Assembly: GCF_002243045.1 (NCBI RefSeq) | Contig: NZ_MBKP01000048.1 | Span: forward strand, 1-32,020 | Length of the DNA: 32,020 nt | Direction: 5' to 3' | Source: Methanolobus psychrotolerans | Lineage (GTDB): Archaea; Halobacteriota; Methanosarcinia; Methanosarcinales; Methanosarcinaceae | Part shown: one piece after another, positions 15,914 to 25,044 of the stretch | Numbering within the stretch: position 1 is the stretch's first letter | Layout of the letters: each line of letters begins with the position of its first letter | Notes under the pieces: model-generated | Told to the model about the DNA's origin: nothing | Seen by the model: the letters and a program-made list of their open reading frames with translations, nothing else | The model's database searches: none | Translations under genes and position numbers: made by a program

Positions 15914-16309
15914 ATGAGTGAAAAAATTGGAATTTTAGCTATTGGGCACGGCAGCAGATTACCATACAACAACCAGGTTGTCACCGAGATCGCTAACATG
16001 ATCTCAGAGAACCACCCTGAGTATATCGTCAAAGCCGGCTTTATGGAGAACAGCGAACCTACCGTAGAAGAAGCGCTCATGTCCTTTGCAGGCACTGGAG
16101 TAACAACAATAGCTGCTGCACCTGTATTCCTTGCATCAGGCATCCACATAACAGAGGATATTCCAGAGATCCTTAAACTTGACCCTGAGACAAACGAAGG
16201 TGAGATAGAGTTTGACGGACAGAAGGTCAGGATAGTCTACGCGAAGCCTCTTGGCAGTGACAAGCTCATTGCAGAGCTTATCTTCAAGAGAGCACAGGAA
16301 GTACTTTAA
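15914..16309 (+). CDS. cfbA: Sirohydrochlorin nickel/cobalt chelatase, short CbiX type (copy 1)
   Basis: This 131-residue single-domain chelatase of the CbiXS/CfbA family inserts Ni (for coenzyme F430) or Co into sirohydrochlorin. Both metal-handling histidines are present: His12 in AIGHGSRLP and His78 in [13 protein letters not shown]. Box A TATATTTAAA lies near 15889-15898 and AAGAAGGTT precedes the ATG. It is followed by a clear terminator overlapping its stop, so it is a single transcription unit. It is about 80% identical by eye to the second copy at 19856. The sequence cannot say which copy serves F430 and which another tetrapyrrole. Confidence 0.93.
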
Positions 16310-16338
16310 GCTGTGTATCAAACACAGCTTTTCTTTTT
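16308..16338 (+). terminator. Hairpin terminator after cfbA copy 1
   Basis: AAGCTGTGT (16308-16316) pairs perfectly with ACACAGCTT (16322-16330) around a 5-base loop, and is followed by a T-rich run to 16338. The stem includes part of the TAA stop. The same stem, slightly changed, follows the cfbA fragment at 19526-19585. Confidence 0.8.
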
Positions 16339-16346
16339 CAATATCT

Positions 16347-16442
16347 GTGAACTACCACCCTATAAATAGAGTGACTTCCTGCTTCATTCCTTGAAACTTT
16401 GTTCACAGGTCCACAGGATCTTCCCCTCGTTCTGAAGGTGCT
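16347..16442 (-). ncRNA. Remnant of TnpB-associated RNA (omega RNA-like) and right end
   Basis: In TnpB elements the 3' end of tnpB and the adjacent right end encode a guide RNA scaffold ending at the element boundary. Here, downstream of the remnant tnpB stop (16443-16445), the minus strand has the scaffold-like text described for the element, with hairpin CACCCTA-TAAA-TAGAGTG at 16356-16373. A guide would come from the flank beyond 16347. With TnpB destroyed it is unlikely to work here unless another TnpB supplies the protein. Confidence 0.45.
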
Positions 16443-16714
16443 CTAAATCCCTATCATGGTCTGCTTATCTAATGCAGATTTTTTGATATGAATAGCGGCA
16501 TTAATATCTCTAACGTGGTTGATATTACAGTTCGGCATATCCATTGACGGTCTGTTAACGTTACTCTCCGTTGTGGTAGCCACCGGCATTACAGATTTTT
16601 GTAGATGGGTCGAACTGTCCAATGTGGAGGATTGTTTTTCCGTACCATTCGGCTTTACATTTGAGCTTAGTTACGAAAGAACTTTATGTTGCATTGGCAA
16701 TATGTTGAGCTAGT
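16443..16714 (-). pseudogene. tnpB: TnpB (IS605 OrfB) C-terminal remnant
   Basis: Minus-strand reading gives LAQHIANAT, a stop, SSFVTKLKCKAEWYGKTILHIGQFDPSTKICNAGGYHNG, one frame slip, and NVNRPSMDMPNCNINHVRDINAAIHIKK up to a TAG stop. This is the end of TnpB: the zinc-finger region (with some cysteines lost) and the last RuvC motif with the catalytic Asp in RDINAAI. The N-terminal two thirds are absent. Confidence 0.85.
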
Positions 16715-16738
16715 TAGAGTATGCAACTAACTTGTTTT

Positions 16739-16795
16739 GTAGAAGGACGTAATTCATCCACCTGTTCCATTTCGAAGAAATTGAACTCACATTAA
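16739..16795 (+). pseudogene. tnpA: TnpA (IS200-type) last 18 codons, remnant
   Basis: Plus-strand reading VEGRNSSTCSISKKLNSH and stop matches the tail GGRNSSTCSSSENWNSH of the TnpA at 31664-32020. The catalytic parts are deleted. The stop lies inside the terminal hairpin ACTCACATTAA (16785-16795) / TTAATGTGAGT (16805-16815). Confidence 0.8.
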
Positions 16796-16815
16796 ATTTT
16801 CGAGTTAATGTGAGT
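16785..16815. repeat. Terminal hairpin of the deleted IS200/IS605 element
   Basis: ACTCACATTAA and TTAATGTGAGT form a perfect 11-base-pair stem with a 9-base loop near the right boundary (16841). TnpA of this family binds such subterminal hairpins as single strands. Its conservation means this end could in principle still be recognised by a TnpA acting in trans. Confidence 0.75.
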
Positions 16816-16893
16816 TTGAAAACGGTGGTCTTCTTACTCCATAGATCATAAACGTGAAAATAATAAAATACTATTTAAATGTACTGGATTAAG

Positions 16894-16919
16894 TATATAT
16901 ATTTACCCTCACATGTGAG
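16894..16919 (+). promoter_or_regulatory. Box A with 12-bp palindrome
   Basis: TATATATA (about 16894-16901) is followed at once by the perfect palindrome CTCACATGTGAG (16908-16919), placed where a repressor would block polymerase. It stands about 90 bases before the broken NifX-like gene and about 530 before fsr, so it may be the promoter of a former nifX-fsr unit. Confidence 0.4.
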
Positions 16920-17008
16920 ATATAGTATAGAACACATCCAGATTTGCAGATAGGAAAGGACTCTCATCCACAAATCCCACGTTTTTCTTGAGTAATAGGA
17001 GAATACAG

Positions 17009-17436
17009 ATGAAACTATATGTAACACCTACAGCAGATCATTTGGAAGCTTCTATTAATCCGTATTTTGAATATGTTTCGAGTTATCCTATGCATACCGA
17101 AACAAAAAATGTCTCAACTATTGGAAACAGCGATGAACAAGCAGGCTGCACAAGTATACCTATTGAACTGGTGTCTTGGCAAGGTGTTGACATAATGCTC
17201 TACGGGGTCTTGAAGGAAAGACTGTTACTATTTTCAAACAATTTGGAATCGAAGTCTCTATTAGGGACAGGGAGAGCTTGAAGGATAAACCGTTGTGTGG
17301 GATGCTGGACGGTTTGCCCGGGCAATAATGTTCAATGTCCGGGCTTTCTGTAGCCACCATCATGACGGAAAATCCTGTTATCGCGAAAATCATCACCAAA
17401 TTGTAAAGTTTGCTTCCAATAAAAAAGAGAAAATAT
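17009..17436 (+). pseudogene. Frameshifted NifX-like (dinitrogenase Fe-Mo cofactor family) gene
   Basis: ATG 17009 opens KLYVTPTADHLEASINPYFEYVSSY, the start pattern of NifX/NifB-tail proteins (compare MKICVTAMSARLDAPVDPHFGRC in the intact gene at 23545). After about residue 66 the frame must shift near 17205, giving GLEGKTVTIFKQFGIEV and a stop at 17326-17328. Beyond that, shifted frames give a Cys/His-rich tail (NNVQCPGF, then CSHHHDGKSCYRENHH) up to about 17436. The conserved DPxFGR has become NPYFEY. It is therefore broken by at least one or two indels. It lies just before fsr. Confidence 0.65.
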
Positions 17437-17449
17437 GAAGAGTGATTTC

Positions 17450-19360
17450 ATGTCAGATAGTTATAAATGGTTCTTAAAAGATGCAGTAGTAGACAAAGGC
17501 ATGTGCACATTTTGTGGTGCATGTGCTGCAGTTTGCCCGTATGACCTCATCGAGTTCAATGAGAATGGTGCCAGAATTAAGGATGAATGCTACAGGAATG
17601 GCGAAGGTGCATGTAAGGATGTTTGCCACAGAGTGATGACAGATGCTTCACGTATCTCTCTGAATGTGTTCGATTTTAAAGCAAAACCACCAACACTCAT
17701 CGGTCAATATGAAAAAATTGTTGCTGCACGTGCAAAGGATCCGAAGCTAGTTGAGAACGGGCAAGATGGTGGGGCTGTTACGGCTCTTCTTGCATATTGC
17801 TTTGATAATGGACTCATAGATGGCGCTGCAACCATTGCAGGCTTATCCAAGCCCAGCGTTCGGATCATAAACAACAAGGATGAACTTTTGCAGTCGCAGG
17901 GTGCCAAGTACGCAACAATACCTATCATGAGCGCTCTTCGTGATGTAGGGAACTATCATACTAATATTGCAATGGTGGGTCTTCCCTGCCAAACCTATGG
18001 TGCAAGAAGGACACAGTTCTTTGAGGGATTGAATGTTCATCCAATTGAAATTGGAAAGAATGGTGAACAAGCATCCCTGCCAAACATGACCTATATTATT
18101 GGTCTTTTCTGTATGGAGAACTTCAACTTCAATAAATTGTCTTCCTGTCTCACCGATGCGGACGTGGACATGAATAAAGTCAAAAAGTACACCATACATC
18201 TGGATGAGCTTGTAGTGACCACGGATGAAGGTGACATCAAATTCAACCTAAAGGACCTCCATGATTGCGTGTGGGAAGGATGCCGCATGTGTCGTGATGC
18301 TGTATCAAAGGTAGCGGATATCTCTGCAGGCTACGCAGGTAGTTCGCAGGGATGGACAACCCTTATCGCAAGAAACGCCAAGGGGCTGGAACTTCTTGAG
18401 AAAGCAGAAAATGCAGGATATATTGAAATCCTGGAAGATGTTGACATAGACCAGATCGAAGAATTTGCCAGTATTAAAATGGAACGTTTCAAGAAAGAAC
18501 TCAAAAAACGTATTGAGGCTGAAACTCCGGTAAACTGTTATTGGGTGCGTGATTACCCCGGTGTCCGACCTGAAGTCAATGGAACGAATTTTGTTAAGAT
18601 CAAAACAGATTCGGGCATCGTTGACCATTATTATTTGGAACTGGTTACAAAACTTGCCGAAAAATATGGTGACGGTACACTTGAACTTACCACTCGCAAA
18701 AATATCGAGATACAGGGTGTAAAGAGCGAAGATGTAGACAAGCTTATGGAAGAGATATACTCAAGCGGCCTGAAAACCATCGGAATGGGGTATGTAACAG
18801 CCTGTCCGGGCAATTCATATTGCCCTGAAGGCCTTGTAGATACCAAAAAACTGGCTAATGAGATTACAATGCAATTCGCCCAGAAGAACATGCCACACAA
18901 AATAAAGGTAGGTGTAGCAGGTTGCCCGAATAACTGTGTTCGTGCACAAAACAATGATATTGGGATAATAGGTCAGCTTTATCCTACTATTGATCTGGAT
19001 AAATGCACTGGTTGTGGAAGGTGTGCAGAACTCTGCAAGGTCAATGCTATTTCGATCAAAAGAGGTAAATCTGTAATTAACCGCGATCTCTGTATCAATT
19101 GTGGAACTTGTGTGCGAGGGTGCCCACATGAAGGAGCCATTGAAGGAAAACGTGGTTTCTCCGTCTGGATTGGTGGAAACGGTGCAAGAAGACCTACAGA
19201 AGGAATCCTTCTAAAATCATTCTGTACTCCCGAGGAAATACCTGCAATAATTAATAAAGTGAGTTCTCATTTTGCCAAACACAGAACACAACCAGGTAAA
19301 GAACGCCTAGGCAATATTATGGAAAAAGTAGGAAAAGGAGAATTTGTGAGCACGATGTGA
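17450..19360 (+). CDS. fsr: F420-dependent siroheme (sulfite/nitrite) reductase, Fsr type
   Basis: The protein has 636 residues. The N-terminal half is an F420H2-oxidising FrhB/FpoF-like domain: a ferredoxin cluster in MCTFCGACAAVCP (about 18-30), then NGQDGGAVTALLAY and MVGLPCQTYGARR. The C-terminal half (about 365-636) is a sulfite reductase domain. It has RPEVNGTNFVKIKT, TTRKNIEIQGV, siroheme-[4Fe-4S] ligands ACPGNSYC (CX5C) and GCPNNC (CX3C), and an inserted two-cluster ferredoxin part (CTGCGRCAELC, CINCGTCVRGC). This architecture is that of Fsr, which reduces sulfite with F420H2. Some Methanosarcinales/ANME forms are reported to prefer nitrite, so the substrate is open. ATG 17450 follows GAGTGAT; ATG 17435 is also possible. 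It lies among cfbA copies, which may supply its tetrapyrrole. Confidence 0.92.
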   Translation: MSDSYKWFLKDAVVDKGMCTFCGACAAVCPYDLIEFNENGARIKDECYRNGEGACKDVCHRVMTDASRISLNVFDFKAKPPTLIGQYEKIVAARAKDPKLVENGQDGGAVTALLAYCFDNGLIDGAATIAGLSKPSVRIINNKDELLQSQGAKYATIPIMSALRDVGNYHTNIAMVGLPCQTYGARRTQFFEGLNVHPIEIGKNGEQASLPNMTYIIGLFCMENFNFNKLSSCLTDADVDMNKVKKYTIHLDELVVTTDEGDIKFNLKDLHDCVWEGCRMCRDAVSKVADISAGYAGSSQGWTTLIARNAKGLELLEKAENAGYIEILEDVDIDQIEEFASIKMERFKKELKKRIEAETPVNCYWVRDYPGVRPEVNGTNFVKIKTDSGIVDHYYLELVTKLAEKYGDGTLELTTRKNIEIQGVKSEDVDKLMEEIYSSGLKTIGMGYVTACPGNSYCPEGLVDTKKLANEITMQFAQKNMPHKIKVGVAGCPNNCVRAQNNDIGIIGQLYPTIDLDKCTGCGRCAELCKVNAISIKRGKSVINRDLCINCGTCVRGCPHEGAIEGKRGFSVWIGGNGARRPTEGILLKSFCTPEEIPAIINKVSSHFAKHRTQPGKERLGNIMEKVGKGEFVSTM

Positions 19361-19525
19361 CCATATTCTCTTTTTTACCAAATATAATAGTGATAACTTT
19401 TAAAAAAGTAGAAGACAGTACCTGCTTGTTCTGTCACTTAACAATTGATGATGCAGTTGTTCTTTCCTAAACTGCAGCCATCTCTTTTTAACGACAGGAA
19501 TATCAGGACCGTCTGCTGCAAGTTC
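19361..19525. other. Gene-free spacer between fsr and cfbA fragment
   Basis: This holds a T-rich run just after fsr (TTCTCTTTTTT, 19367-19377) that could end transcription. No coding signal is seen before the cfbA fragment. Confidence 0.4.
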
Positions 19526-19585
19526 CTTGGCAGTGACAGACTCATTGCAAAACTTATTTTCAAGAGAGCACAGGAAGTGCTTTAA
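19526..19585 (+). pseudogene. cfbA: 3' fragment of a third cfbA copy
   Basis: The DNA reads [19 protein letters not shown] and stop, nearly the same as the last 19 residues of both intact CfbA proteins. Upstream of 19526 the similarity ends abruptly, and both active-site histidines are missing. It keeps a copy of the cfbA-1 terminator right after the stop. It is evidence of a tandem duplication in this locus. Confidence 0.85.
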
Positions 19586-19586
19586 G

Positions 19587-19614
19587 CTGTGTCGCTGACA
19601 CAGTCTTCTTTTTT
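19587..19614 (+). terminator. Terminator hairpin carried with the cfbA fragment
   Basis: CTGTGTC (19587-19593) pairs with GACACAG (19597-19603) around GCT, followed by a T-rich run. It is related to the terminator at 16308-16338, so the duplicated unit included the terminator. Confidence 0.65.
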
Positions 19615-19855
19615 CGAATATACCTTTTTTAATACCTCATTTTCACAGACTCTTTTTTGGCTTGTTAAGAGCAAAATGTTCTTTGTTCTTGCTTGAACTG
19701 GTAAAAATCCGATTCTTGCATTTATATTATAGTACAAAAGTACAAAAGCCATTTTTCAAAATCTAATAAGATATCATAAAAACTTATAAACCTATTCGAT
19801 TTAGCAATCAATATATACTTTATTGATAATGATGTTTTAGAAGGAAGGTTAAATT

Positions 19856-20251
19856 ATGAGTGATAAAATAGGTATTTTAGCTATAGGACACGGCAGCAGG
19901 TTACCATACAACAATCAGGTTGTTACCGAAATTGCAAACATGATAACAGAGAATCATCCTGAATATGTGGTAAAGATAGGATTCGTAGAGCACAGTGAAC
20001 CTATTGTTAAAGAAGCACTAATGTCATTTGAAGGCACAGGTGTAACAAAAATAGCTGCAACACCTATATTTCTTGCATCTGGGGTCCACCTCACAGAAGA
20101 CATTCCGGAATTCCTTAATCTGAAACCGGACACAAATGAAGGCGAGGTGGAGTTAGACGGAAAGAAAGTAAAGATCCTCTACGCCAAGCCTCTTGGTAGT
20201 CATAAGTTCATTGCAGAGCTTATCTTCAAGAGAGTACAGGAAGTGCTTTAA
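19856..20251 (+). CDS. cfbA: Sirohydrochlorin chelatase, short CbiX type (copy 2)
   Basis: This 131-residue paralogue of the protein at 15914 keeps both catalytic histidines (His12 in GHGSR, His78 in [11 protein letters not shown]). It is as long as copy 1 and aligned without gaps. Differences cluster in the middle ([16 protein letters not shown] against [15 protein letters not shown]), including an extra histidine near residue 46. AGAAGGAAGGTT precedes the ATG; the region 19680-19855 is AT-rich promoter-like DNA. It is downstream of fsr. It could be a dosage copy for F430, or be tuned to another metal such as iron for siroheme; that choice is inference. Confidence 0.93.
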
Positions 20252-20731: not shown

Positions 20732-21793
20732 TTATACATTGATCCCTAGCTGGCCGGACCTGGAAAGAACTGCTTCTTCTATTATATCTGCAAGGCTGTC
20801 CCGTGCAACATCTGTAACCGCAGCAAAGACCGTGAACTTACCTGCGTCATCAGTCCCGGAACCGACAAACTCCAACTCTGGAATATCCCGATAAGAGGTT
20901 ACACTGACTCTCATAGCCACAGTTCCTGTGTGGAGGAACATCTTAAGGTGTCCCAGGAAACGGGGATTCAGGTCAAGTATATTTTCCCTGATCGATTGCA
21001 TTACATCTAGAATCAAGCTCATCGCTGCTTCTCTGCCAAGGAAGCTTTTTACCTCATAAGAATCTGCATAGCTACTTACATTAAAATGATTGAAATCATC
21101 CTCGCATGCAGTGGTACATTCAGCAGAGACGGCAATCGTTCCGGAACCCAACAACCCGGGACTATCCGTCACTGAAATACCTGAACCGAAACTCGATTCC
21201 AGCACATCCATCAGGCTTGTGAATGCTCCGTCTTCCTCTCCCTTCAGAGACAGTGCATATAATTGTGCATCAGGATTCAGATCTTCAATTGTGGCTTTTA
21301 TCCCTGCAAGTTGTTCCCGGTCCAGCAGGTCTTTTTTATTCAGGAGAACTATGTCTGCATTTTGTATCTGCCTGATGATAGCATCCCCTGAATGTTCCAT
21401 AAGCTCACCGAATCTACTGCCATCTATAAGTGTTATTATAGGACCCATACTTATTTCATGCCCAAAATCCATTTTTTTTATCTGCTCTTTTATCCGCAAG
21501 GGAAAAGCAACTCCAGTGGGTTCGATGAAAAGAATATCCGGATCATACTGAGCCTGTACTAAGGATATGTTAGCCTCAAGTGCATACTTCAGGGTACAGC
21601 AGATGCATCCCCTTGGCATTTCCTTTGACTCCAGCCCATTCTTATTGATGATCTGGCCGTCAACGCCCACATCGCCAATGTCATTGACAAGCACAGCTAC
21701 GCTATAGCCTTTACTTTTAAAGTTTTTCCCCATCCTTATGACCGAAGTAGTCTTCCCGCTACCTAAAAAACCACTGACAATGATTATTTGCAT
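20732..21793 (-). CDS. COG0523/G3E-family GTPase (CobW-like), no His tail
   Basis: This 353-residue G3E P-loop GTPase has Walker A GFLGSGKTTSV (about 8-15), the metal motif CICCTLK (about 65-71), the switch/Walker B region FIEPTGVAFP, and guanine specificity LLNKKDLLD. The family includes CobW, YeiR and ZNG1-type zinc chaperones and HypB/UreG relatives, which use GTP hydrolysis to load metal into client proteins. The C-terminal domain (about 230-353) is shared with its neighbour (SYADSYEVKSFLGREAA, NPRFLGHLKMFLHTG). It lacks a histidine-rich segment. It is 54 bases downstream of the second GTPase gene and probably co-transcribed. Metal and client are unknown. Confidence 0.85.
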   Translation of the reverse strand: MQIIIVSGFLGSGKTTSVIRMGKNFKSKGYSVAVLVNDIGDVGVDGQIINKNGLESKEMPRGCICCTLKYALEANISLVQAQYDPDILFIEPTGVAFPLRIKEQIKKMDFGHEISMGPIITLIDGSRFGELMEHSGDAIIRQIQNADIVLLNKKDLLDREQLAGIKATIEDLNPDAQLYALSLKGEEDGAFTSLMDVLESSFGSGISVTDSPGLLGSGTIAVSAECTTACEDDFNHFNVSSYADSYEVKSFLGREAAMSLILDVMQSIRENILDLNPRFLGHLKMFLHTGTVAMRVSVTSYRDIPELEFVGSGTDDAGKFTVFAAVTDVARDSLADIIEEAVLSRSGQLGINV

Positions 21794-21847
21794 TCAAACC
21801 CTCCGACTATAGTATGATCCGGCCCCAGCTCATTTGGAAACAGTATC

Positions 21848-23146
21848 TCATAGCTGGCAATCGTTGCTTCCCGTATCACAGGCTACCAGATCATGGTCGT
21901 AGATGTCTTCATCCATTTCGTCATGTCTGTGCTCATGTTTATGCTCATGTGAAGTTTTATGCACATGGCCATCATCATGGTCATCTTCATGGTCGTGATG
22001 GTGACCATTCTCATGGATATGCGGATCGTGCAGGCGTTGGGAAATCATGTCCCTCTTGCTGAAAGCGTTTTCAACATTCCCGTCCACCAGGCGGACAAGT
22101 TCATCTTCATCAATGCCTGATACTGCCGTAAGAATCTTAAACCTCGGGCCTGAGTGTGCTCTGGTATCTATTATAGTGATTGCAGGGCTTTCGGAATGTG
22201 ACGTTATACTTATTTTCACCGTCTCTGCAGGGGCTTCCAGGAACATTTTGATGTGTCCCACAAATTCCGGGCTTAACCCTACTATTTCAGATTTTACGCC
22301 TTCTGCAATCTCCAGGGTAATCTGTCGGGCAGTTTCGCAATCAATATCTGTTTCTAGTATCCTGTAATCATTGGCATATGATGCCAGCCCGGAAATTTCA
22401 CTATCGTAGTGTGTGTGTTGATGATGTTGATGAATGTCCACAGCATACTCCACAGGTTGAGCAGCTTCTGCACTTTCTACAGGATCATATGAATCTATAG
22501 AGGCAGCGGGAACAATTACTTCATTGTTTCTTTTCCCAACTACGATCTCCATCAGTTCTAAGAAGCCTGCATCCTCAACTTTTGAAGACATTTTGATAAT
22601 TTTGGCCGCTGGATTTAGCTGCTGCACTGATTCCTCAAGTATTGGAACCCTGATAGGGTCAACAAGGTCGGTCTTGTTTATAATCAGAATCTCCGCATCT
22701 TCTATCTGTCTTAATGCATAGACCTTTACTGACTTCATTATATCCTTGAAGCGACTTCCGTCTATTAAAGTCACCAGTGGGGCCACCCTTACATTATCTC
22801 CGAAGTTCATCAGTTCAAACTCCTTTTTAATAACATTCGGAAAAGCAATCCCCGAAGGTTCCACAATAACATAATCCGGATTGTAGGAATTGTAAAGCTC
22901 AGTAAGTGTGGCCTTCATGTTGAGTTTAAGAGTACAGCATATACACCCGTTAGTTATCTCCTTGGCATCTAGCCCATATTTTGATATCAGATCACCATCT
23001 ATGCCTACCTCTCCAATCTCGTTTACTATTATCGCTACTTTATGACCTCGCTTGGCAAGCTCTTTACCAACATTGATCACAGTTGTCGTCTTTCCGCTGC
23101 CTAAAAAACCTCCGATGATTATCGCATCCATCTTGCTTACCTCCAT
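21848..23146 (-). CDS. COG0523/G3E-family GTPase with histidine-rich C-terminal tail
   Basis: This 432-residue paralogue of the next gene has GGFLGSGKTTTVINVG (Walker A), CICCTLKLN (metal motif) and IINKTDLVD (guanine specificity). The region QHHQHTH near the middle and a long tail at about 378-420, with HIHENGHHHDHEDDHDDGH then HEHKHEHRHDEMDEDIYDHD, are rich in His and Asp. That is as expected for binding or storing Zn, Ni or Co. The ATG is at 23146 (an alternative at 23131 gives MDAIIIGGFLG). It is first of the two-gene leftward unit. Having one tailed and one untailed paralogue side by side suggests a division of labour. The client is not indicated by neighbours. Confidence 0.88.
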   Translation of the reverse strand: MEVSKMDAIIIGGFLGSGKTTTVINVGKELAKRGHKVAIIVNEIGEVGIDGDLISKYGLDAKEITNGCICCTLKLNMKATLTELYNSYNPDYVIVEPSGIAFPNVIKKEFELMNFGDNVRVAPLVTLIDGSRFKDIMKSVKVYALRQIEDAEILIINKTDLVDPIRVPILEESVQQLNPAAKIIKMSSKVEDAGFLELMEIVVGKRNNEVIVPAASIDSYDPVESAEAAQPVEYAVDIHQHHQHTHYDSEISGLASYANDYRILETDIDCETARQITLEIAEGVKSEIVGLSPEFVGHIKMFLEAPAETVKISITSHSESPAITIIDTRAHSGPRFKILTAVSGIDEDELVRLVDGNVENAFSKRDMISQRLHDPHIHENGHHHDHEDDHDDGHVHKTSHEHKHEHRHDEMDEDIYDHDLVACDTGSNDCQL

Positions 23147-23544: not shown

Positions 23545-23970
23545 TTACATAAATTTGCTTTCAACTCCTTTCTTCCACCCAGTCCCTTTATAAATATGGT
23601 TCTGTCCTCCATATTCATGCTTTCCTGGAGAATTGGAAACCTCAAGTTTCCTAAGGATGTTGCTTTTGTAAGCCTGTACAGCATCTGCGACAGAACCTCC
23701 TTTGAAGGACATTACACAAACATTCTTTGATTTAAGCATTGAAAACGCTTTAGCCCCAACAGTTCCTGTTATAAGTGTATTTACGCTCCTGTTAAGGATT
23801 AACTGAGCCGCCTGAACACCTGCACCGCTGGAAGCAGAAGCTGTTGCGTTCTTGATAGCTTCAAATCCCATCGAGTCAACATCTACAATTACAAAGTACA
23901 GGCATCTTCCAAAATGAGGATCCACGGGAGCATCCAATCTAGCCGACATGGCTGTTACACATATTTTCAT
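23545..23970 (-). CDS. NifX-like dinitrogenase iron-molybdenum cofactor family protein
   Basis: This 141-residue small RNase H-like domain protein has MKICVTAMSARLDAPVDPHFGRCLYFVIVD at the start, SSGAGVQAAQLILNRSVNTLITGTVGAKAF in the middle and a basic tail. The family (NifX, NafY, NifB C-terminus and many stand-alone archaeal proteins) binds iron-sulfur or Fe-Mo cofactor intermediates, but most methanogen copies are unlinked to nitrogenase. No nif gene is in the window. A broken relative is at 17009. It is transcribed divergently from the DUF169 gene. Confidence 0.85.
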   Translation of the reverse strand: MKICVTAMSARLDAPVDPHFGRCLYFVIVDVDSMGFEAIKNATASASSGAGVQAAQLILNRSVNTLITGTVGAKAFSMLKSKNVCVMSFKGGSVADAVQAYKSNILRKLEVSNSPGKHEYGGQNHIYKGTGWKKGVESKFM

Positions 23971-24345: not shown

Positions 24346-25044
24346 ATGAACAATACCGAGATAGCACAAAAACTCGTAGAACTACTTGACCTTAGATATG
24401 AACCAGTGGCTGTAAAAATCATAAAGAAGGGAGAAACGATCCCGGATGGATTCCAAGTGCCAGAAGCCAATATAAGGCACTGTCAATCGATAATGATGGC
24501 AAGAAAAGGGGAATCTGTTTTCATTCCCGCCGAAAAACATGCATGTGTTGTAGGTGCTTCCAGTCTGGGACTGATTCCAACACCTCCTAAAGTCAAGGAA
24601 GGGGAGTTCCACGCCAACATAGGCATGTTCGACTGCGCCGATGCTGCTTCAAATATGATATCCCAGCGTTCTGCATTGGAAGAAGGAAGCACAATTGCCA
24701 CAGTTGTTTGTCCGCTGAAGGACTCTGAGCTTAAACCGGACGTAGTGGTTCTGGTGGATGTTCCAGAAACCCTTTACTGGCTTGTTCCAGCAGCAACTTT
24801 CTTTGAAGGAGGCAGGCAGGCATTCAGTACGGCAGCTTTTCAGGCTACATGTGTGGATTCTACAATCATTCCACTCCTCACAGGTAAAATGAACATGAGT
24901 CTGGGATGCTTCGGATGTCGCAGGGCAACAGATATCAAAAACGATGAAATGATAGCAGGAATTCCCTATGATAACCTGGGGAAAATGCTAGATGCTCTTG
25001 AGAAGATACATGGCGGACCCATGCAAAAAGCAAGGAAGCAGTGA
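24346..25044 (+). CDS. DUF169 family protein
   Basis: This 232-residue protein of the DUF169 family is frequent in methanogens and other anaerobes. It has RYEPVAVKIIKKGETIPDGF near the N-terminus, RHCQSIMMARKGESVFIPAEKHACVVGASSLGL (about 44-76), GMFDCADAASNMISQRSAL, and the C-terminal GCFGCRRATDIKNDEMIAGIPY. Conserved cysteines (in HCQS, HACVVGA and CFGCR) suggest metal or cluster binding, but no activity is established. It starts at ATG 24346. It has no close neighbour in the same direction, so it is probably monocistronic. Confidence 0.88.
   Translation: MNNTEIAQKLVELLDLRYEPVAVKIIKKGETIPDGFQVPEANIRHCQSIMMARKGESVFIPAEKHACVVGASSLGLIPTPPKVKEGEFHANIGMFDCADAASNMISQRSALEEGSTIATVVCPLKDSELKPDVVVLVDVPETLYWLVPAATFFEGGRQAFSTAAFQATCVDSTIIPLLTGKMNMSLGCFGCRRATDIKNDEMIAGIPYDNLGKMLDALEKIHGGPMQKARKQ

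Follow-up and report, generated by a model that had tools for sequence, protein, structure and literature searches.

Gene content of the locus

The window, that is, the whole stretch of 32,020 nucleotides analysed, is contig C72 of a 3.16-Mb Methanolobus psychrotolerans genome (the host genome below). Two intact cfbA genes and a third cfbA fragment surround fsr (Table 1), bearing out what the sequence-only reading had seen; both intact genes are open reading frames of 131 aa in which the metal ligands are kept. The same reading called fsr the only siroheme enzyme in the window. This is correct, but it does not extend to the genome, which encodes a second NIR_SIR protein (a 226-aa Dsr-like protein on contig C41) and AhbA/AhbB-type siroheme decarboxylases.

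Table 1. Features of the cfbA-fsr region, in window positions
Feature	Position	Strand	Details and basis
cfbA1, sirohydrochlorin nickelochelatase, EN-type	15914-16309	+	G-F-M44-E45-N46-S; NF033198 161.6 bits, tree, synteny
Terminator-like hairpin and T-rich tail at cfbA1 end	16308-16330	+	9-bp stem, then TTCTTTTT
fsr upstream element	16895-16930	+	TATATATTT, then palindrome CACATGTG
Decayed NifX-like frame (dinitrogenase cofactor family), between element and fsr	17008-17281	+	
fsr, F420-dependent siroheme sulfite/nitrite reductase, group II-like	17435-19360	+	Pfam, 7np8 match
cfbA 3'-end relic (codons ~100-131) with its own terminator-like hairpin	19487-19615	+	Coding part 19487-19585
cfbA2, EH-type CfbA paralog	19856-20251	+	G-F-V44-E45-H46; NF033198 151.7 bits, clade 100/99, AlphaFold2
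Two COG0523/CobW-type GTPases	20732-21793, 21848-23146	-	Pfam cobW, NCBIfam, genus search
NifX-like gene, rest of NifX/DUF169 cluster	23545-23970	-	
DUF169 gene, rest of NifX/DUF169 cluster	24346-25044	+	

The 641-aa product of fsr carries F420-oxidase and sulfite/nitrite reductase domains in one chain, a combination common to Fsr groups I and II. Among solved structures it matches F420-dependent sulfite reductases (7np8, E 2e-131). It shares its domain order and a Halobacteriota host with the group II Fsr/F420-dependent nitrite reductase of ANME-2c (FsrII, PMC9295563). As in FsrII, the second sulfite-binding Arg is missing (a gap in a single pairwise alignment with 7np8), whereas the first Arg, in contrast to FsrII, appears to be retained.

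Each of the four Methanolobus fsr loci carries a TATATTT box with CACATGTG behind it (CACTTGTG in its place in genome G058). This element lies 217-525 bp before the reading frame (525 bp in the host genome) and is kept also in G046, where fsr sits elsewhere in the genome. It was absent from the 1.5 kb examined upstream of fsr in other genera. The palindrome is a candidate binding site for a regulator. The 1.1-kb gap between cfbA1 and fsr contains a terminator-like hairpin; such matches are no commoner than in shuffled sequence, but the position of this one and its repetition in the relic copy fit a terminator. With a conserved element in front of fsr and this hairpin closing cfbA1, the genes do not look like a single cfbA-fsr operon, and a cfbA1-fsr-cfbA2 transcription unit is disfavoured.

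Both copies encode CfbA-type chelatases

CfbA1 and CfbA2 share 80% identity and both exceed the 120-bit cut-off of the sirohydrochlorin nickelochelatase equivalog (NCBIfam NF033198, F430_CfbA; Table 1). His12, Glu45 and His78 are aligned in both copies and are assigned as metal ligands because they correspond to His9, Glu42 and His75, the Ni ligands of Methanocaldococcus jannaschii CfbA (numbering of PMC11301274). A model of CfbA2 (AlphaFold2, pLDDT 92.7) has the CfbA structure 6m2a as its best PDB match, and its top PDB matches are all CfbA.

Known CfbA is a homodimer that inserts Ni2+ into sirohydrochlorin, and its small single-domain subunit is matched by the 131-aa copies. Length, fold and the three ligand equivalents are common to both copies, M. 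jannaschii CfbA (PDB 6m25-6m2g) and the M. jannaschii/M. barkeri chimera (6m2a). The residues flanking the ligands differ, being M/F/T in M. jannaschii, M/N/I in CfbA1 and V44/H46/L79 in CfbA2. The Bacillus subtilis sirohydrochlorin ferrochelatase SirB (5zt7-5zta) belongs to the same superfamily and part of it aligns with CfbA2 (TM ~0.75 by query length). However, the SirB monomer has two domains in a chain of ~260 aa, of which the 131 aa of CfbA2 cover only about half, so CfbA2 is not of SirB type.

By sequence, cfbA1 is the ortholog of the single cfbA of other Methanolobus. Its matches at 92-97% identity are mostly records named Methanolobus, and it follows fwd-fdhD in most loci of the genus that extend that far. 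Clustering with cfbBCDE, a frequent though not obligatory trait of cfbA, is not seen for Methanolobus cfbA, and in the host genome cfbE-cfbD lie on contig C89. In Methanosarcina, Methanococcoides, Methanohalophilus and genus g5, in contrast, the same enzymes are encoded by a cfbA-cfbE-D-C-B operon, which in g5 is headed by a cfbA1-cfbA2 pair of the same kind as in Methanolobus. Known CfbA systems thus differ from the present one both in the tandem copies and in the location of cfbA relative to the cfb operon. Purifying selection acts on cfbA1 and cfbA2 alike, and cfbA2 evolves faster (median dN/dS 0.05 for cfbA1 and 0.09 for cfbA2).

Distribution of the cfbA pair and fsr in relatives

The sequence-only reading had raised a possible dedicated siroheme branch and named co-occurrence of a second cfbA with fsr in relatives as a check. 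Within the genus, cfbA1 is often accompanied: a tandem cfbA pair is present in 14 of 27 genomes, a phylogenetically non-independent sample in which drafts can hide copies. Full-length fsr is found in four, three of which also have the pair (the host genome, G050 and G058), while G046 combines fsr with a single cfbA. Eleven of the 14 pair genomes have no fsr, and the counts for both, fsr only, pair only and neither are 3, 1, 11 and 12 (Fisher p = 0.60). Across 112 genomes of the family, 23 carry full-length fsr and 18 an EH-type pair; the two coincide in three, compared with 3.7 expected from the margins. The proposal therefore fails this check in relatives: duplication and linkage are real, but the duplication does not appear to be tied to fsr.

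Of the 23 family genomes with fsr, 19 belong to other genera, and almost every one of these has a single cfbA that is not linked to fsr. No fsr-cfbA proximity was seen in Methanococcoides, Methanohalophilus, g9, g14 or g2; in these and other fsr genera, cfbA is normally a single gene, located at a distance from fsr or on a different contig. Both genes are doubled in G106, which looks like a mixed assembly, and for G016, an incomplete genome with fsr, no cfbA match was obtained. As fsr lies within ~6 kb of cfbA in three of the four Methanolobus genomes that have it, some functional linkage may exist in this genus, but in two of these the position is a single inherited one.

Probable relocation of fsr in the host lineage

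Gene order in the genus, conserved with gaps, is fwdFACDB-fdhD-cfbA1-(cfbA2)-(cobW, cobW)-(NifX)-DUF169-DUF1847-MBL-(radical SAM)-DUF169-(fsr). In G050 and G058, fsr is at the far end of the NifX/DUF169 cluster, beyond cfbA2 and divergent from DUF169. Only in the host genome is it between cfbA1 and cfbA2.

The conserved neighbours of fsr in relatives are NifX, DUF169 and DUF1847 genes. Methanococcoides has the DUF169-divergent-NifX-fsr topology of G050 and G058, and Methanohalophilus has NifX-NifX-fsr together with MinD-type ATPases, DUF1847 and MBL genes. As this arrangement recurs in both genera, the conserved partners of fsr are the NifX/DUF169 set and not cfbA. Recent acquisition of fsr as foreign DNA is disfavoured by these recurring neighbours and by the 84-89% identity of fsr within the genus. 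The NifX/DUF169/DUF1847/MBL/radical SAM/MinD-type set, which recurs around fsr in Methanosarcinaceae (L126:8416-13065, L194, L195), is possibly a metal-sulfur cluster system tied to group II Fsr.

The cfbA fragment behind fsr resembles the last ~33 codons and the terminator of cfbA1 (77-80% identity; 80% over 129 nt), and runs on into a hairpin like that of cfbA1. A degraded but once complete third cfbA is disfavoured, as a gapped alignment shows similarity over only ~129 nt. The stretch 19526-19851 of the window, which runs from the relic up to cfbA2, is collinear (79%) with the cfbA1 3' end, spacer and cfbA2 of G054, a genome with the order cfbA1-spacer-cfbA2 and no fsr. The relic is probably a scar of fsr relocation, the simplest reading being that a segment with fsr entered at the 3' end of cfbA1, which was duplicated in the process; we infer this direction and mechanism from four genomes. 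In Methanococcoides and Methanohalophilus an intact NifX-like gene immediately precedes fsr, and the dead NifX-like frame ahead of fsr in the window is a probable relic of an ancestral NifX-fsr arrangement. It may alternatively serve as a regulatory leader.

Other changes in cfbA copy number were encountered. G059 has another cfbA 3'-end relic (L137:16822-16962; 47% over the last 47 residues) adjoining cobW, indicating that cfbA copies have been lost or shuffled more than once in the genus. M. vulcani and M. bombayensis are among the carriers of the pair, and M. vulcani B1d (G063) has a third full-length cfbA, of EN type, away from the fwd locus (L134:7945-8337).

A CfbA subtype with altered neighbours of the metal ligands

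Four changes from cfbA1 to cfbA2 (M44V, N46H, I77V and I86F) are fixed, occurring in each of the 14 Methanolobus pairs; I79L is present in 13. M44V and N46H flank the ligand Glu45, and I77V and I79L flank the ligand His78. Direct neighbours of these two ligands make up four of the ten diagnostic positions (p = 0.0002), a signature that was spotted before it was tested. Six identical changes have occurred in parallel in g5 (positions 39, 44, 46, 50, 79 and 81), where a crude null expects 1.9 (P = 0.004). V44 was observed in second copies alone; His46 occurs in the single cfbA of G051 as well. Weaker signature positions are E81 and V77, which outgroups also have. A class-wide scan of 238 genomes for GF[VIM]EHS.P gave matches in the cfbA2 genes of all 14 genomes with the pair, in the four g5 genomes and in G051, and also at two sites in Methanococcoides that are away from the cfbA locus. 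By sequence, the second copies form a distinct CfbA subtype.

Methanolobus cfbA2 genes form one clade (100/99) and those of g5 a separate one (100/99), which groups with g5 and Methanosarcina cfbA. When all columns are included, the AU test does not reject a tree that unites them in a single clade (p = 0.157), which would allow for one origin of EH-type copies and their spread by transfer or gene conversion. When the signature columns, picked after the fact, are left out, the one-clade tree is rejected (p = 0.012), and for this reason two independent origins are favoured. Given also the different genomic contexts and the placement of g5 cfbA2 with g5/Methanosarcina sequences, a single origin seems doubtful. 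The g5 gene order is cfbA1-cfbA2-cfbE-cfbD-cfbC-cfbB, with the EH-type copy directly upstream of cfbE and thus placed within the F430 operon.

Siroheme supply and metal handling

A search of the genome for a HemH-type ferrochelatase (PF00762) found none. Accordingly, one CfbA must insert iron unless this is done by SirC or a Mg-chelatase-like enzyme. SirC is encoded within an AhbA/B-SirC cluster and carries a Sirohm_synth_M piece; it may be a bifunctional Met8-type enzyme. Its orthologue in M. barkeri was shown to be a precorrin-2 dehydrogenase (PMC3004389). The check for another ferrochelatase in the genome that the sequence-only reading had called for is thus negative for the HemH type and leaves SirC as a candidate.

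Two further CbiX domains are encoded in the genome (C80:3209-3895, in a 1075-aa protein, L003; C90:3357-3689, in a 649-aa protein, L004). Both retain the chelatase His of the first motif, and the 649-aa protein has an N-terminal signal-like segment. Large proteins such as these are an unusual location for a tetrapyrrole chelatase domain. As both are apparently at the cell surface, they are unlikely to supply the missing ferrochelatase.

The CobW pair (20732-23146) is convergent to cfbA in many Methanolobus genomes. Orthologues of the first CobW adjoin cfbA in ~11 of them, including G048, G049, G056 and G064, which have a single cfbA, suggesting that these GTPases are possible metallochaperones for the chelatase.

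Origin and role of the second cfbA

We consider it likely that tandem duplication of cfbA took place at genus level, independently of fsr, and that fsr was moved into the pair later and only in the host lineage. In Methanolobus, cfbA stands behind the formylmethanofuran dehydrogenase operon, a second, faster-evolving CfbA2 is encoded in about half of the genomes, and the fsr/NifX/DUF169 cluster is found just beyond the pair. In this scheme, most genomes would have lost fsr and two kept it at the far end, while in the host genome its move between cfbA1 and cfbA2 would have left the duplicated cfbA1 3' end and the dead NifX-like frame. The linkage of fsr and cfbA is thus most likely a local rearrangement beside an inherited neighbourhood, and the cfbA copies were probably not made to serve fsr. 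CfbA1 would most likely be a general sirohydrochlorin chelatase, inserting Ni for F430 and probably Fe and Co, as in single-copy relatives.

The original proposal, in which one copy, presumably CfbA2, is an iron chelatase feeding Fsr and the linkage reflects co-selection, now appears very improbable. It would account for the fixed changes beside the metal ligands and the proximity of most Methanolobus fsr genes to cfbA, and it is in keeping with the lack of a HemH-type enzyme and with the listing of the iron chelatase of the M. barkeri siroheme/heme pathway as a missing enzyme (PMC3942049). However, cfbA2 occurs mostly without fsr and fsr mostly without cfbA2, the g5 copy is in an F430 operon, and fsr has its own upstream element behind the hairpin of cfbA1. 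AhbA/B and the Dsr-like protein need siroheme anyway, and M. acetivorans, with a single cfbA and no Fsr of its own, produces siroheme, which it loads into recombinant FsrII (PMC9295563); Fsr is therefore neither the sole siroheme user nor an explanation for a second cfbA. A broader role for CfbA2, as the missing archaeal ferrochelatase for siroheme and heme and not bound to Fsr, is unlikely but deserves more weight. The signature beside the metal ligands, which probably evolved in two genera, and the presence of an AhbA/B-SirC cluster in a genome in which no known ferrochelatase was found are consistent with it, but one CfbA suffices in 13 Methanolobus genomes and most other genera, and the EH-type copy of g5 again points to F430. 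Equally unlikely is a plain dosage effect, with the second copy merely raising Ni-sirohydrochlorin supply and the residue differences due to drift. Purifying selection on both copies, the higher rate in cfbA2 and the same predicted fold would all fit, but drift explains poorly why V44 and H46 are fixed in every Methanolobus cfbA2 and recur in g5, or the excess of parallel and ligand-flanking changes.

Since the fixed changes lie beside metal ligands, a functional split between the copies of the duplicated pair is plausible. CfbA2 is probably a specialised, and most likely sub-functionalised, sirohydrochlorin chelatase whose second shell around Glu45 and His78 would be altered. In our judgement it is more likely to serve F430 under different metal conditions than to serve Fsr, an argument made by analogy with the separate duplication in the F430 operon of g5; about half of the weight falls on F430/nickel and the remainder on iron, cobalt or plain dosage.

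Implications for tetrapyrrole metallation in methanogens

Linkage to fsr is no evidence for a siroheme-specific chelatase, and the earlier interpretation is corrected in this respect. For M. barkeri, the enzyme that puts iron into sirohydrochlorin was reported to be the one missing from heme synthesis (PMC3942049). CfbA prefers cobalt in vitro (PMC7242693, PMC11301274), which makes it hard to see how a single enzyme would serve the nickel, cobalt and iron pathways. A less probable reading is that CfbA2 with V44-E45-H46 and H78-L79 is a metal-specialised subtype of class II chelatase that arose at least twice from the nickelochelatase CfbA in methanogens and that, in some lineages, is the long-missing iron (or cobalt) chelatase for sirohydrochlorin. 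The natural CfbA1/CfbA2 pairs of 14 Methanolobus genomes and another genus, differing beside the metal ligands, provide a ready comparison.
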